64,000 nucleotides of DNA from Pseudomonadota bacterium (GTDB taxonomy: Bacteria > Desulfobacterota > Binatia > Binatales > Binataceae): NCBI GenBank assembly GCA_021325355.1, contig JAJPHI010000020.1:124001-188000 (forward strand), read 5' to 3'. Made by a program: the position numbers and the translations under genes. The first letter of the stretch is position 1; the number at the start of each line of letters is the position of its first letter. A model generated the notes under the pieces. That model was not told where the DNA came from, did no database searches, and worked only from the letters and a program-made list of their open reading frames with translations. Shown here in pieces: positions 7,962 through 14,183 of this stretch.

Positions 7962-9788
7962 CTAACTGACGATGAGACCGGCGAAATCGCCCCGCTCGCG
8001 CCACTGCGCCAGGAGATCGAAAAAGGCGAGCGCCCCGGGCGGATACACGGCCGTAAGGAAGCCGCCTTCACCCAGGCCCTCGCCATTGTAATAGCCCGGC
8101 GTGCAGACGCTTTGATATTTCGACATCGGATTCGGACGATTCACGGTCTGCACCCATTCCTCTTCGGCCTCGCGCGTCGGTTCGATCGCGCGGGCGCCGC
8201 GCTGCTTGACCGCCTCGATCAGATGGGCCACGTGATACGCCTGCTTGTTCAGCATGTAGGTGAAGTTGGCGGTCAGTCCGGTCTGCGTCAGGCCCATGTG
8301 AAAACAGTTGGGGAAGCCGTTGCTTAGAAAGCCGTGGAAGGTGCGCATCCCATTGGCCCAGTAATCCGCGAGCGAGACGCCGTTGCGCCCGTACATCGCG
8401 AACTCCGCCCGGCGCGTGTAGGCCGTGCCGACCTCGAAGCCCGTCGCGAAGATAAGACAATCGACCTCGTATTCGACACCGTCGACGACGACGCCGTGCT
8501 CGGTTACCCGCTCGACGCCCTTTCCGCTGGTATCGACCAACTTGACGTTCGGCCGATTGAACGTCGGCAGATAGTCATCGTTGAAGGTCGGCCGCTTGCA
8601 CCATTGGCCATACCACGGCTGCAGGGCCTCGGCGGTTGCCGGATCCTTGACGACCGTGGCCACGCGCGCGCGAATCTCGTTCATTTTCTGAAAATCGGCG
8701 ATTTCCGCGAGCGCCATCCGGTCTTCCGCCGACAGCTTCGCGTCCTTGCGATTGTTCAGCAGGTCGCCGAGCTTCTTGAGCGGACTCGTCCACTTGTCGC
8801 GAACCTCGTCCTTTTCCAGCTCGACGCCGTCGAGCAGCGCGGTGAAATTGCGATTGCGATACTCCTGCCATCCCGGCTTGAGTTTCTTCGCCCATGCCGG
8901 ATCGGTCGGCGTATTGTTGCGCTCATCCACCGACGACGGCGTCCGCTGAAAGACGTAGAGCTGCTGCGCCCATTCGCCGAGATGCGGAATGCATTGGATC
9001 GCGGTCGCGCCGGTGCCGATAATGCCGACCCGCTTGTCCTTGAGCTTGTGCAGGCCGCCGGTGGTGTCGCCGCCCGTATATTCGTAGTCCCAGCGGCTCG
9101 TGTGGAAGGTGTGACCTTTGAAGTTTTCGATGCCGGGAATGCCGGGCAGTTTCGGCTTGTTCAGCGGCCCGCTCGACATGATGACGAAACGCGTGCGCAG
9201 GACGTCGCCGCGATCGGTGCGGATTACCCAGCGCGCCGCCTCATCGTCCCATCGCGCCTCGGTGATCCTGGTCTGAAAGCAGGCCTTCTCGTACAGCTTG
9301 AACTGGCGGCCGATCCGCTGCGCGTGGGCGAAAATTTCGGGCGCAAAGGAATAGCGCTCCTTAGGGATATAGCCGGTCTCTTCGAGCAGCGGCAGGTAGA
9401 GATAGCCTTCGACGTCGCACTGCGCGCCCGGATAGCGGTTCCAGTACCACGTTCCGCCGAAGTCGCCGGCCTTCTCGATGATGCGGAAGTTCGTGATGCC
9501 CACTTCCTGCAGCCGCACCGCCGAGAGCATCCCGCCGAACCCTCCGCCGACAATCACGACGTCGAGCTCCTCGTGCAGCGCCGGACGCGTGAACCCCGGC
9601 TCGACGTAGGGATCCTCGTTGAAGTGCGCAAACTTGCCGGTGATCTCCTGGTACTGCCGATTGCCATCGGCGCGCAGCCGTTTGGCTCGTTCGGCGGCGT
9701 ATTTTTCCCGCAGCAGACCCGGATCGAAGCCCAGCTCCTCCGGGGTCGGAATATGGTTGGGGGCGGCTTGAGTGACTGCTTCACTCAC
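7962..9788 (-). CDS. FAD-dependent Baeyer-Villiger-type monooxygenase
   Basis: 608 residues. Two Rossmann sites are visible: GGGFGG at residues 81-86 for FAD and GTGATA at 258-263 for NADPH. Between them [12 protein letters not shown] (223-234) matches the Baeyer-Villiger fingerprint F-x-G-x-x-x-H-x-x-x-W-[P/D]. [14 protein letters not shown] (112-125) is also typical of the cyclohexanone/phenylacetone monooxygenase group. The enzyme would insert oxygen next to a ketone carbonyl using NADPH and O2; the substrate is unknown. The roughly 75-residue N-terminal extension ahead of the FAD motif recalls the larger cyclododecanone/steroid monooxygenase-type members. The start is GTG at 9788-9786, with AGGAGG (complement at 9799-9804) ten bases upstream. 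It stands alone, with no esterase next to it. Confidence 0.88.
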
Positions 9789-10017
9789 GACGGTCAGTCC
9801 TCCTGGATGGTTCTTGCGCCGGAGCTTAGCACTTTATGCGGCAAAGGGCGCAGTCGCGCCGCGCGCGCATTTTGCTCGCGTCCGCCGCAAGACCCGACGC
9901 CCATCCGCGGGGGCGGCTCAAAGATAGCGTCAGACGCCGCCCCGAATCCGCAACACTTTCGCGCGAGGCAAGGCCGCACCGACTGCGCGCCTCCATGGCG
10001 CGACGCCTTAATCGCCG

Positions 10018-11829
10018 CTAGCCGGCTGCCGCCGTGCGCGCTTCGATCAGATTGCGGATGGTTGCCGCGAGCTCGACCAGCTCGACCGGCTTGACGACGT
10101 GACAATCGAAACCGCCGGCAAGGATCCGCACCTTGTCATCGACCCGCCCATAGGCGGTCAGCGCGATCAGCGGGACCCGCCGATGGGGTGTAGTTGCCTG
10201 TTCGCGCTTGCGCAATTCCCGCGCGAAGTAATAGCCGTCCTGCACCGGCATCTCGATATCCGCAATGACGAGGTCGGGAGCCATCATGTCAAGCCGCCGA
10301 AGCGCCTCCTGCGCGGAGTACTCGGCGCTGACCATTGCCCCCAGGGAACCGAGGAAATTGGTCAGCGCGTCACAGGCTTCCTTGTCATCATCGACCGCCA
10401 GGATCGTCAGTCCGTCGAGGCGCGGTATCACCGCGATACTTTCCGCCGGACTGACCGTCGGATGCCGTCGGGGTTCGAGCAGGGGGGCGCGCGCCGGCGG
10501 CAGCGGTAAACGCACAATGAAGGTGCTCCCTTTACCCGCGCCCTCGCTATGCGCGACCACGGTGCCGCCGTGGAGCGCGACCAATTCCTTGACGATCGAA
10601 AGCCCCAGACCCATACCCCGGCGATTCTCCGGATCGGCCTGATGCCAGAAGCGATCGAAGATGAACGAGAGATCCCGCGGCTCGATACCTTTGCCGTTGT
10701 CGGCGACGACAATCTCGATATGGGAGTTGATCCGCTCGAGCCGCACCTGGATACGGCCGCCCTTGGGCGTAAACTTGACGGCGTTGGACAGCAGGTTCCA
10801 CATCACCTGCTCGAGGCGCTTCGGGTCGCCGGCGATAAGACCGACCTTGGGATCGATCAGCTCCTGCACCGTGATCGCTTTCGCTTCGGCGGCCAGGCGG
10901 ATGGATTCCAGCGCCGCGCGCACCACCTCCGCCGGATCGGTTGCCTGCACGTCCAGCCGCATGCGGCCGCTTTCGAGCCGCGCCACGTCGAGCAGGTCTT
11001 CGATCAACTGCGCCTGGGCCCGTGCCGCCCGGCCGATCGAATCGACCCGCCGCCGCACCTCGTCGGAAAGGCTCTGGTTCGCTTGCAGCACGCCGGTCAG
11101 CAGCATGATCGAGTTGAGCGGATTGCGCAGCTCGTGCGACACCGTGGCGAGGAAGATATCCTTGCTGCGATTCGCCTCTTCCGCGCGCGCCAGCGCGCCC
11201 CTGAATTGGGCGCTCGCCCGCGTGATCTCCCGCCATCCGACATAAGCCAGGATGCCGGCAACCAATAGCGCGAGGAGCGGCACCAGCAACGTCGTCAGGC
11301 TTTCCGAGACGTTGAGGCTCGCGGCGCGTTGCGCCAGCAGATGATTTTCCTCGCCGGCCATCTCGTCGAAAATCGCCGACAGCGCGAGGAGCTGATCGTT
11401 CAACTGACCGAGCGCCTCGGGCGCGCCGACTCCCGCGGGCTTCTGCGCGATAAGGGCGCGGATCGCCGCGAACCACTCGCCCTTCAATCCGCCCAGCTCG
11501 ACCACTCGCTGCACCTGTTGCGGATTGTCGCTGATTAACGTCGAGAGCCCGTACAGATCGTCATCGACCTTGCTCTCCGCATGCGCCATCACGGTCAGGT
11601 AGCGTTTGTCCCCGGTCAGCCAGTAGGAGCGGAAGGGGACGAGGACTTTGAACGTATCGGTCTGCGCGTCCCGGACCGCGGCGATTACCTGGTAGGTGTG
11701 ATTGACCAGGGCCGTGCGGCCGGCCTGCACGCTCACGCGCCACAGCACCACGGCCGCCACCAGGGCCAGCGCCGCAAAGGGGGCAACATAGCCTATGCGC
11801 ACCGCGCGGCGAAAACTGTTATCCGGCAT
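10018..11829 (-). CDS. hybrid sensor histidine kinase / response regulator with CHASE3-like sensor
   Basis: 603 residues. Order: TM1 (about 14-33), an extracytoplasmic helical CHASE3-like domain (about 34-178, containing the SYWLTGDKRYL motif), TM2 (about 179-198), a HisKA domain with SHELRNP and phospho-His232, an HATPase domain with N-box NLLSNAVKFTPKGG, DNGKGI and GLGLSI (about 341-445), and a C-terminal receiver domain (about 474-597) with acidic residues at AVDDD, phospho-Asp524 and Lys in VVKPVE. Phosphate would pass from His232 to Asp524 and on to an HPt partner not present here. No response-regulator gene is adjacent. It is divergent from the acyl-CoA dehydrogenase operon, across a 189-bp region that holds inverted repeats. 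Confidence 0.92.
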   Translation of the reverse strand: MPDNSFRRAVRIGYVAPFAALALVAAVVLWRVSVQAGRTALVNHTYQVIAAVRDAQTDTFKVLVPFRSYWLTGDKRYLTVMAHAESKVDDDLYGLSTLISDNPQQVQRVVELGGLKGEWFAAIRALIAQKPAGVGAPEALGQLNDQLLALSAIFDEMAGEENHLLAQRAASLNVSESLTTLLVPLLALLVAGILAYVGWREITRASAQFRGALARAEEANRSKDIFLATVSHELRNPLNSIMLLTGVLQANQSLSDEVRRRVDSIGRAARAQAQLIEDLLDVARLESGRMRLDVQATDPAEVVRAALESIRLAAEAKAITVQELIDPKVGLIAGDPKRLEQVMWNLLSNAVKFTPKGGRIQVRLERINSHIEIVVADNGKGIEPRDLSFIFDRFWHQADPENRRGMGLGLSIVKELVALHGGTVVAHSEGAGKGSTFIVRLPLPPARAPLLEPRRHPTVSPAESIAVIPRLDGLTILAVDDDKEACDALTNFLGSLGAMVSAEYSAQEALRRLDMMAPDLVIADIEMPVQDGYYFARELRKREQATTPHRRVPLIALTAYGRVDDKVRILAGGFDCHVVKPVELVELAATIRNLIEARTAAAG

Positions 11830-12018: not shown

Positions 12019-13161
12019 ATGAAGACACCTTTTTTCGATGCCCGCATGGATTTTCCGGAGATGGAGCGGACCCGCGCCGAAATCCGCGAGTTTCTCGCCC
12101 GCGATCCCGCCACCAAGACACCCCATGCCGATTCCTGGAGCCACTTCGACCCGGAATTCAGCCGCCGACTCGGCGCCGCCGGTTTCATCGGCATGACCTG
12201 GCCGAAACGCTACGGCGGCCATGAGCGGAGTTCGCTCGAACGCTACGTCGTCGTCGAAGAGCTGCTGGCGGCCGGTGCGCCGTCGGCCGCTCATTGGATC
12301 GCCGATCGCCAGACCGGACCGCAACTGCTCCGCTTCGGCACCGAAGCGCAGAAGCAGGACATCCTGCCGCGGATCGCGCGCGGCGAATGCTACTGCTCGA
12401 TCGGCATGAGTGAGCCGGATAGCGGCTCTGACCTCGCCAGCGTCCGCACGCGCGCCCGCCGTGACGGTGACACCTGGGTCATCAACGGGCGCAAGATCTG
12501 GACTTCGTATGCCCATCGCTCGCATTACGTCCTGATGCTCTGCCGCACCGGCGAAGACCCCGCGGCGCGCCAACAGGGACTGAGCCAGATCCTCGTTCCG
12601 CTCGACGCCTCGGGCCTCACGATCCGCCCGATTATCAACATGGCCGGCGACCACGACTTCAATGAGCTGCTTTTCGAAGACGTGCGGGTGCCCGCCGACG
12701 CCCTCCTCGGTCAGGAGGGCCAGGGCTGGAACCAGGTCATCAGCGAACTCGCCTTCGAGCGCAGCGGTCCCGAACGCTTCCTTTCCTCGTTCGTGCTGCT
12801 CGAAGCCTTCGTCGAACGTGCGCGCCGCGAGCCCTCGGCGGACGCCGCGATGCTCATCGGCTCGCTGATTGCGCGACTCGCGCCGCTGCGCGGCATGTCG
12901 ATGTCGATCGCGGTCCAGCTCGGACGCGGCGAACAGCCGAACTTCGAAGCGGCGCTGGTCAAGGAGACCGGTTCGCTGTTCGAGCAGGACCTCGCCGAAC
13001 TGATCATGCGTGAAGTCGTGCCCGCCGCCGACCTCACCTCTGCCGATAAATTCCAGCGCCTGCTGGCCGAAGCGGTGCTGCATGCGCCGTCGTTCTCGAT
13101 TCGCGGCGGCACGCGGGAGATTTTGCGCGGCATTATCGCACGAGAATTGGGGCTTCGCTGA
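12019..13161 (+). CDS. acyl-CoA dehydrogenase, subunit carrying the putative catalytic Glu
   Basis: 380 residues; oxidises an acyl-CoA to the 2,3-enoyl-CoA with FAD. Seen: N-terminal helical domain, GFIGMTWPKRYGG, flavin-contact stretch SIGMSEPDSGSDLASVRTRA (near 131-150), GRKIWTSYA, then FERSGPERF (near 250-258), whose Glu occupies the place of the catalytic base in one branch of the family, and a C-terminal SIRGGTREILRGIIARELGL. The usual second-subunit FAD motifs (RKQFG and QxxGGxG) are missing, whereas the next gene has them. This suggests a heteromeric enzyme like the alpha2-beta2 acyl-CoA dehydrogenases of steroid side-chain breakdown. ATG 12019 follows a GAGGA ribosome site. The stop overlaps the next start. 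Confidence 0.88.
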   Translation: MKTPFFDARMDFPEMERTRAEIREFLARDPATKTPHADSWSHFDPEFSRRLGAAGFIGMTWPKRYGGHERSSLERYVVVEELLAAGAPSAAHWIADRQTGPQLLRFGTEAQKQDILPRIARGECYCSIGMSEPDSGSDLASVRTRARRDGDTWVINGRKIWTSYAHRSHYVLMLCRTGEDPAARQQGLSQILVPLDASGLTIRPIINMAGDHDFNELLFEDVRVPADALLGQEGQGWNQVISELAFERSGPERFLSSFVLLEAFVERARREPSADAAMLIGSLIARLAPLRGMSMSIAVQLGRGEQPNFEAALVKETGSLFEQDLAELIMREVVPAADLTSADKFQRLLAEAVLHAPSFSIRGGTREILRGIIARELGLR

Positions 13162-14183
13162 TGAGTGAAATCACGCTGATTGAAGAAACCGCCCGCCGCA
13201 CTATCGCCGACGGCCTAACGCCCGCCGTCATCGAAGCCGCCGAGCACGGCGCCTGGGCGGGTGAACTCTGGGACCAGTTGGCCGCCCAGGGTCTGCTGCA
13301 ACCCGCCGCGATCGCCCAGGACGCCGCCGAAGCGCTCGAAATCGAGGCCGCCGTCATCCGCGCGATCACCGCGGCGGCCACTCCCCTGCCGGTGGTCGAG
13401 ACGATTCTCGCCGGCGCCTTCCTTGTCCAGCATCGCCTCGAGGTTCCTGCGGCGCCCTTGTCGCTGGCTGCCTTCGACGACTCGGACCGTCTGAGTCTCA
13501 CTAACGGTCGCGTCTCGGGTCGGCTCGCGCGCGTCCCCTGGGGCCGCGACGTCGCCGCCGTGGTTGCGGTCGCCGGCGACTGCCTGCTCCTCCTCGAGAC
13601 CCGCTCGGCAAATCCGAGCCGCGGCCTCAATATGGCTAACGAGCCACGCGATACGCTCGAGTTCAAGGAGGCCACCCCACTCGCCCGGGCGACCGGGGTC
13701 GATTCCGATGCGCTCCTTGCGCGATGCGCCGCGGCGCGCGCGCTGCAACTCGCCGAAGCCGCAGCGCGGGTGCTCGAACTGACGGTCGAGTACGCGGCGA
13801 ATCGCAAGCAGTTCGGCCGGCCGATCGGCAACTTTCAGGCGATCCAGCATCAGATCGCCGCCGCAGCTAGCGAGGTCGCCTCTGCGCGCGTCGCCGCCCA
13901 ACAGGCGCGGCTCGCGCTGGCCGCCGGCAAAAACGCGCTGATGGCGTGCGCGATCGCCAAGGCCCGCGCCAACGACGCCGCCGCCGCCGTCGCGCGCATG
14001 GGCCATCAGGTGCACGGCGCCATCGGCTTCACCCAGGAATATCAGCTCCATCGTTACACGCGACGCATCCAATCGTGGCGCCACGAGTTCGGCGCTTCGG
14101 CTTATTGGAATCGACGGATTGGTGAATTGATCCTGCGCGATGGCGAGCGTTCGGTATGGTCGATTCTGACCGCAACCGCCTAG
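13161..14183 (+). CDS. acyl-CoA dehydrogenase, partner subunit
   Basis: 340 residues, shorter than the typical 380. The N-terminal and middle domains are divergent and the flavin-contact WxxS/T stretch is not evident, but the C-terminal domain is well kept: RKQFGRPIGNFQAIQH (near 213-228) with the Arg that contacts FAD across a dimer interface, and QVHGAIGFTQEYQLHRYTRR (near 282-301). It lacks an obvious catalytic Glu. It starts one base inside the stop of the previous gene (TGATG at 13159-13163), so the two are co-translated. The complementary loss of motifs supports one heteromeric enzyme made of both products. The physiological substrate is unknown. Confidence 0.85.
   Translation: MSEITLIEETARRTIADGLTPAVIEAAEHGAWAGELWDQLAAQGLLQPAAIAQDAAEALEIEAAVIRAITAAATPLPVVETILAGAFLVQHRLEVPAAPLSLAAFDDSDRLSLTNGRVSGRLARVPWGRDVAAVVAVAGDCLLLLETRSANPSRGLNMANEPRDTLEFKEATPLARATGVDSDALLARCAAARALQLAEAAARVLELTVEYAANRKQFGRPIGNFQAIQHQIAAAASEVASARVAAQQARLALAAGKNALMACAIAKARANDAAAAVARMGHQVHGAIGFTQEYQLHRYTRRIQSWRHEFGASAYWNRRIGELILRDGERSVWSILTATA

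Follow-up and report, generated by a model that had tools for sequence, protein, structure and literature searches.

Two adjoining genes in a 64,000-nucleotide stretch of bacterial DNA (the whole stretch analysed, hereafter the window) both encode proteins that resemble acyl-CoA dehydrogenases (ACADs), raising the question of whether they specify two enzymes or the two parts of one. The original prediction chose the second answer on the basis of a complementary loss of motifs, and cited enzymes of steroid side-chain degradation as its precedent. From the evidence below we are confident that the products of these genes are the alpha and beta subunits of a single FAD-dependent ACAD, most likely an alpha2-beta2 enzyme with two active sites. 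It is very probably a heteromeric ACAD of known architecture, from a branch for which no characterised member was found in the open-licence literature.

Division of motifs between the two proteins

The two genes and their principal features lie in the window as follows:

12019 to 13161, plus strand: putative alpha subunit, 380 amino acids, with N-terminal, middle and C-terminal ACAD domains, the flavin loop and the catalytic Glu E247
12280 to 12312, plus strand: conserved helix-E P88 and the alpha clade signature AHWxxDRQ (residues 91-98)
12406 to 12444, plus strand: putative flavin (isoalloxazine)-contact loop MSEPDSGSDLASV, alpha residues 130-142, containing SEPDSGSD
12757 to 12762, plus strand: predicted catalytic Glu E247 and R248, helix G of alpha
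13159 to 13163, plus strand: TGATG stop/start overlap
13161 to 14183, plus strand: putative beta subunit, 340 amino acids, an ACAD fold with a trimmed middle region and the FAD-ADP contact motifs
13803 to 13817, plus strand: RKQFG, beta residues 215-219
14007 to 14027, plus strand: QVHGAIG, beta residues 283-289
14076 to 14093, plus strand: beta clade signature WRxE[F/Y/A]G, residues 306-311

Read directly, the TGA of alpha (13159-13161) and the ATG of beta (13161-13163) share a single base, in agreement with the overlap and the coordinates originally reported, and this arrangement suggests that translation of the two genes may be coupled. A scan for promoters and terminators found none.

A scan for relatives yielded at least 593 pattern matches, at least 582 of which encode relatives, and the best 80 of these were used for counts; together with the window alpha and five others they make up a set of 86 alphas. 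In Pfam, the window alpha matches the ACAD families of the N-terminal domain at 84.9 bits and of the middle domain at 77.5, and weakly that of the C-terminal domain (25.1, cut-off 22.4). Residues 130-142 form the putative flavin-contact loop of ACAD structures, in which S131, E132, G136, S137 and D138 are invariant (86/86) and P133 nearly so (83/86). E247 and R248 are each present in all 86 alphas, as are P88, H92, W93, D96, R97 and Q98 in and before the clade signature. A Glu occupies the E247 column in three ordinary ACADs of the same genome (L004, L005 and L008), and LCAD and IVD likewise carry a helix-G Glu according to PMC11153573. The C-terminal part of the window alpha contains neither R..FG nor Q..G[AG].G. 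Among the alphas of the best 80 of at least 582 relatives, R..FG (sought after approximately residue 215 of the trimmed sequence) was found in none, nor was the C-terminal Q..G stretch.

Beta presents the reverse picture. Its Pfam matches are confined to C-terminal-domain families (77.8 and 27.7 bits), and the R, Q, F and G of RKQFG are present in 80 of 81 aligned betas, the remaining row having a gap. In the second motif A287 and G289 are invariant (81/81), G286 is found in 76 and Q283 in 74, the others having Ala or Ser at the latter position. Among the 75 betas found beside the best 80 of at least 582 relatives, R..FG occurs in 74 and the strict Q..G[AG].G in 66; one trimmed beta is just 92 residues long, at a locus where alpha begins near the end of the stretch. 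The prediction that beta has no catalytic Glu held at both canonical positions, with Glu in none of 81 betas at the MCAD-type column (Asp in two) and in none of the 10 aligned at the helix-G column of E247. Relative to motif-keeping ACADs, F310 of beta occupies the MCAD-type catalytic column, with the qualification that a Glu, E309, lies one residue earlier, within a signature in which W306 and R307 are invariant (81/81) and E309 (otherwise Asp) and G311 are each found in 80. WRxE was found neither in Tcur3481 nor in six aligned ACADs of the window's own genome, and the alignment showed the beta-like L010, L013 and L017 of that genome to be without it. The middle region measures 88 residues in the window beta and 87-104 across 11 aligned members of the beta family, and is longer in Tcur3481 (113) and in the six own-genome ACADs (125-134). 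In four betas (L099 7195-7989, L101 7189-8001, L115 9125-9853 and L142 2784-3449) the profile is matched at its two ends alone, as though the middle domain had been lost.

The complementary motif loss is thus real: alpha has E247 and SEPDSGSD without RxxFG or QxxG, and beta has RKQFG and QVHGAIG. The pattern of an ordinary homotetrameric ACAD was not found, the FAD motifs and the catalytic Glu being split across two chains. Motif loss as such is not rare, since 11 of 31 ACAD open reading frame rows from the same genome (which include fragments, two duplicate rows and alpha itself) match neither R..FG nor Q..G[AG].G.

The same genome holds a second adjacent ACAD pair (C14:86014-87615; L012 793-1899, L011 766-1983) whose motifs complement each other in a different way: RKAFG and QVLGGHG are found in one chain, which has no EGT, and FEGT, with an MCAD-type Glu, in the other, which has no R..FG or Q..G. 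At C14:40836-41280 and C35:62139-62603 (L020, L026 and L021), ACAD genes appear to be split between reading frames.

Linkage and co-occurrence of alpha and beta

A beta gene adjoins alpha at 75 of the 80 loci (the best 80 of at least 582), downstream at 53 and upstream at 22. At the other five, tblastn with betas found none near alpha, while three positive controls were detected. Each of the five genomes carries a beta (414.8-457.2 bits) on a different contig from alpha. These orphan betas (L176 354-1427, L173 5948-7015, L172 5818-6921, L175 771-1964 and L178 7616-8578) are on contigs sized 10628, 9228, 65325, 358852 and 8611, and the alphas on contigs sized 18697, 8585, 70364, 345419 and 8939; the sequence retrieved around the orphans yielded no alpha. 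Two of the five genomes have a second beta, in each case beside a second alpha. At L123 alpha and beta both lie near contig ends, and an assembly break may separate them.

Co-occurrence was complete when 56 relatives and the window's own genome were compared: among these 57, alpha and beta were found in an identical set of seven. Alpha scored at least 401.6 bits in the seven and 326.6 in the next genome, and beta at least 325.8 bits in the seven and no more than 168 in the rest. Three pair-bearing genomes (G007, G009 and G017) have same-genus counterparts (G021, G022 and G002) without it, a difference suggesting that the two genes are gained or lost together. Distances among alphas and among betas were correlated at r=0.896, a value that includes shared species history, over 68 of the 75 loci (short betas excluded), the best of 2000 permutations reaching 0.159; median identity in this set was 0.56 for alpha and 0.39 for beta.

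As a point against the heteromeric reading, alpha homologues with 45-50% identity also occur in six related genomes holding no family beta above 168 bits, and the four of these six that were aligned are missing both motifs too. Such chains may use another kind of beta or function alone. These four homologues, together with the 11 of 31 rows described above, led us to reject motif loss alone as proof of a partner; the telling part is the adjacent partner.

That the two genes encode independent homo-oligomeric enzymes which merely share an operon could be argued from the models, in which each chain adopts a complete ACAD-like fold, and from the abundance of ACAD genes in this genome (31 PF00441 matches). 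Neither chain, however, has the full set of FAD and catalytic motifs, and adjacency in two gene orders at 75 of the best 80 of at least 582 loci, orphan betas in the genomes of the other five and identical presence and absence across 57 genomes make independence highly improbable.

Relation to characterised two-part dehydrogenases

In the solved two-part enzymes, alpha binds the isoalloxazine and the substrate and holds the Glu while beta contacts the ADP part of FAD, as described in PMC11153573; activity requires the heterotetramer, which has two active sites, according to PMC8399759. As the original prediction had proposed, our pair was compared with ChsE4-ChsE5-like proteins, and each chain matched its counterpart in them. 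The single-chain model of beta (pLDDT 94.2) gave Foldseek ranks 1-4 to beta chains of 6wy8, 6wy9 and 4x28 (best 6wy8_A, 6wy9_B and 4x28_C), with Z scores of 37.7, 37.4 and 35.9 for those entries and 33.7 for the next. Alpha (pLDDT 87.2; low at residues 131-140, block mean 55, and at 358-363) matched 8hk0 (Z 37.6), 6wy8_B (36.0) and 4x28_B (33.7), with 6wy9_A also among the first nine rows, in a ranking weakly separated from ordinary ACADs (human LCAD Z 35.8; IVD also close). Its best PDB sequence matches were 4x28_A and Tcur3483.

In a tree of 39 rows, in which ChsE4 was represented by residues 46-285 only, ending before the C-terminal motifs, 33 rows where R..FG was not found formed one clade (100/99), and five motif-keeping ACADs of the window's genome lay outside it. 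The window-family alphas formed a clade of their own (100/100), apart from that of ChsE4 and Tcur3483 (100/99). Fic32-33 and L011 were on long branches, L011 grouping with ordinary ACADs while itself being without R..FG.

The heteromeric reading is therefore strongly supported by motif complementarity, linkage in two gene orders, orphan betas, co-occurrence, correlated distances and fold matches. The steroid precedent fared less evenly, its architecture fitting the pair and a steroid function finding no support. ChsE4-ChsE5 (FadE26-FadE27) of M. tuberculosis (4x28) shares with our pair the helix-G Glu, flavin loop and helix-E proline of alpha, its beta is an FAD-ADP binder as proposed here (PMC11153573), and both chains match by fold; it differs in its clade and in identity over the fold alignment (28-30% for alpha, 22-23% for beta). 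The steroid ACAD Tcur3483-Tcur3481 of T. curvata (6wy8/6wy9) is the best fold match for beta and in the top group for alpha, yet Tcur3481 is without WRxE and has a middle region of 113 residues against 88, and Tcur3483 is without AHWxxDRQ and falls in the separate clade. IpdE2 (NF050027), of IpdE1-IpdE2, is the best NCBIfam model for beta, which nevertheless reaches 73.6 bits against a cut-off of 450.

Orthology with ChsE4-ChsE5, ChsE1-ChsE2 or IpdE1-IpdE2, acting on side chains or ring remnants of sterols or bile acids, would explain the shared architecture and the prominence of Tcur3481-Tcur3483 and ChsE4-ChsE5 among the best PDB sequence and fold matches. It would also suit P88, which aligns with the AGAP proline of ChsE4, taken here as Pro89 of PMC11153573, which links this helix-E residue to bulky (sterol) substrates. 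Against it, beside the separate clade of the alphas and the missed IpdE2 score, stands the distribution of KshA_C, the sole steroid marker sought: no match was found in the window's genome (95.34% complete), and four of the seven alpha-beta genomes had none either; matches were weaker in G040 and G045 and strong in G009, the last being a point in favour of a steroid role. Of the flanking proteins, three were searched, namely a monooxygenase, a hybrid histidine kinase and an aldo/keto reductase. On the clade, the IpdE2 cut-off and the KshA_C distribution, steroid orthology was rejected as improbable.

A dicarboxylyl-CoA dehydrogenase of the PimC/PimD (pimeloyl-CoA) kind is a further candidate. 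PimC and PimD (TIGR03204/TIGR03203) are likewise a large/small ACAD pair, pimC_large is the best NCBIfam model for alpha (183.6 bits) and pimD_small the second for beta (70.9), and a PimCD-like pair in beta-proteobacteria serves dicarboxylates, with fitness effects on C8-C12 dicarboxylates and a suggestion by its authors that it may be a heterotetramer (PMC12543098). A non-steroid pair of similar sort has thus already been proposed in print. Both scores are, however, far under the curated cut-offs (623.85 and 652.7), and other proteins of the same genome fit better (L018, 292.9 bits for pimC; L013, 233.6 for pimD), leaving PimC/PimD function unlikely for our pair. An adjacent PimC/PimD-like pair is located elsewhere in this genome (C20:373246-374875; L017), with an alpha-like chain of 414 and a beta-like chain of 429 amino acids, below the curated cut-offs.

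Alpha's top fold match belongs to the Fic32-33 complex of Streptomyces ficellus (8hk0), the alpha-like chain of which, as far as printed, is likewise without R..FG and Q..G. It differs in its long branch and in the absence of its partner chain from the beta search among the matches listed. The complex comes from a ficellomycin producer and so is probably non-steroid; no paper on 8HK0 was found in the open-licence literature. A reading of 8hk0 as an alpha-only homodimer, and thus a counter-example, was dropped on its entry title, which names the Fic32-33 complex.

Genomic neighbourhoods and the proposed enzyme

The window pair sits beside genes for a hybrid histidine kinase and an aldo/keto reductase. 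The minus strand encodes, at 7962-9788, a flavin monooxygenase that resembles the PtlE model but scores under its cut-off (771 bits against 1100). Antisense to it, on the plus strand, runs a 586-amino-acid open reading frame (8334-10094) that is probably a high-GC artefact. No conserved neighbours emerged among the five closest pairs (window, L067, L068, L069 and L070), whose flanks look different. A terpene-related literature search gave nothing relevant by title, and the main text of the Binatota paper PMC8262859 offered no lead.

Among the matches listed, the pair occurs in Deltaproteobacteria/Binatota-like relatives of the window organism, Alphaproteobacteria, Geodermatophilaceae, Rokubacteria, Pseudomonas and Bacillota. 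Genes were called at 81 of the 86 loci, giving 82 stretches with the window, and the raw neighbour counts are lower bounds. An enoyl-CoA hydratase cluster is represented in at least 28 stretches, and in at least 23 of these one of its members lies no more than 2.5 kb from alpha. A CaiB-type (family-III) CoA-transferase cluster occurs in at least 15 stretches and an aldehyde dehydrogenase cluster in at least nine, one representative per cluster being confirmed by Pfam. Six annotated plasmid regions (6 of 103 records) carry crotonase, CaiB/BaiF, aldehyde dehydrogenase, MaoC, thiolase, MmgE/PrpD, SDR or amidohydrolase genes within a few kb, and in these regions alpha and beta are both annotated as plain acyl-CoA dehydrogenases. 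From P88 and these varied catabolic neighbourhoods in other taxa, the substrate would be a non-steroid acyl-CoA made bulky by branching, by a ring or in some other way.

For the single two-subunit enzyme we infer the following arrangement. Alpha would contribute E247 as the base, along with the pocket for the substrate and the flavin-contact loop, and beta would reach the ADP half of FAD through the Arg and Phe of RKQFG and the Gln and Gly of QVHGAIG, so placing FAD at the alpha-beta interface with two active sites per heterotetramer rather than four. The alpha proton of the acyl-CoA would be abstracted, the beta hydride transferred to FAD and the electrons passed on to ETF. A more tentative proposal, possible but doubtful, is that AHWxxDRQ in alpha and WRxE in a trimmed beta mark an uncharacterised and widespread non-steroid branch of heteromeric ACADs, and that E309 has taken on a new function there, be it at the interface, within the pocket or in passing electrons to ETF.

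The two-part ACAD architecture was already known; what is added here is a widespread branch, distinct from the steroid enzymes, in which no part in steroid breakdown was found. It carries the two-gene design, familiar chiefly from steroid degraders, into a large group with other catabolic neighbours. Where both genes are annotated as acyl-CoA dehydrogenases, a gene count would score this single enzyme twice, and an assay of alpha by itself might show no activity. The presence of the branch in culturable genera, such as Pseudomonas, Bradyrhizobium and Sphingomonas, makes it testable.
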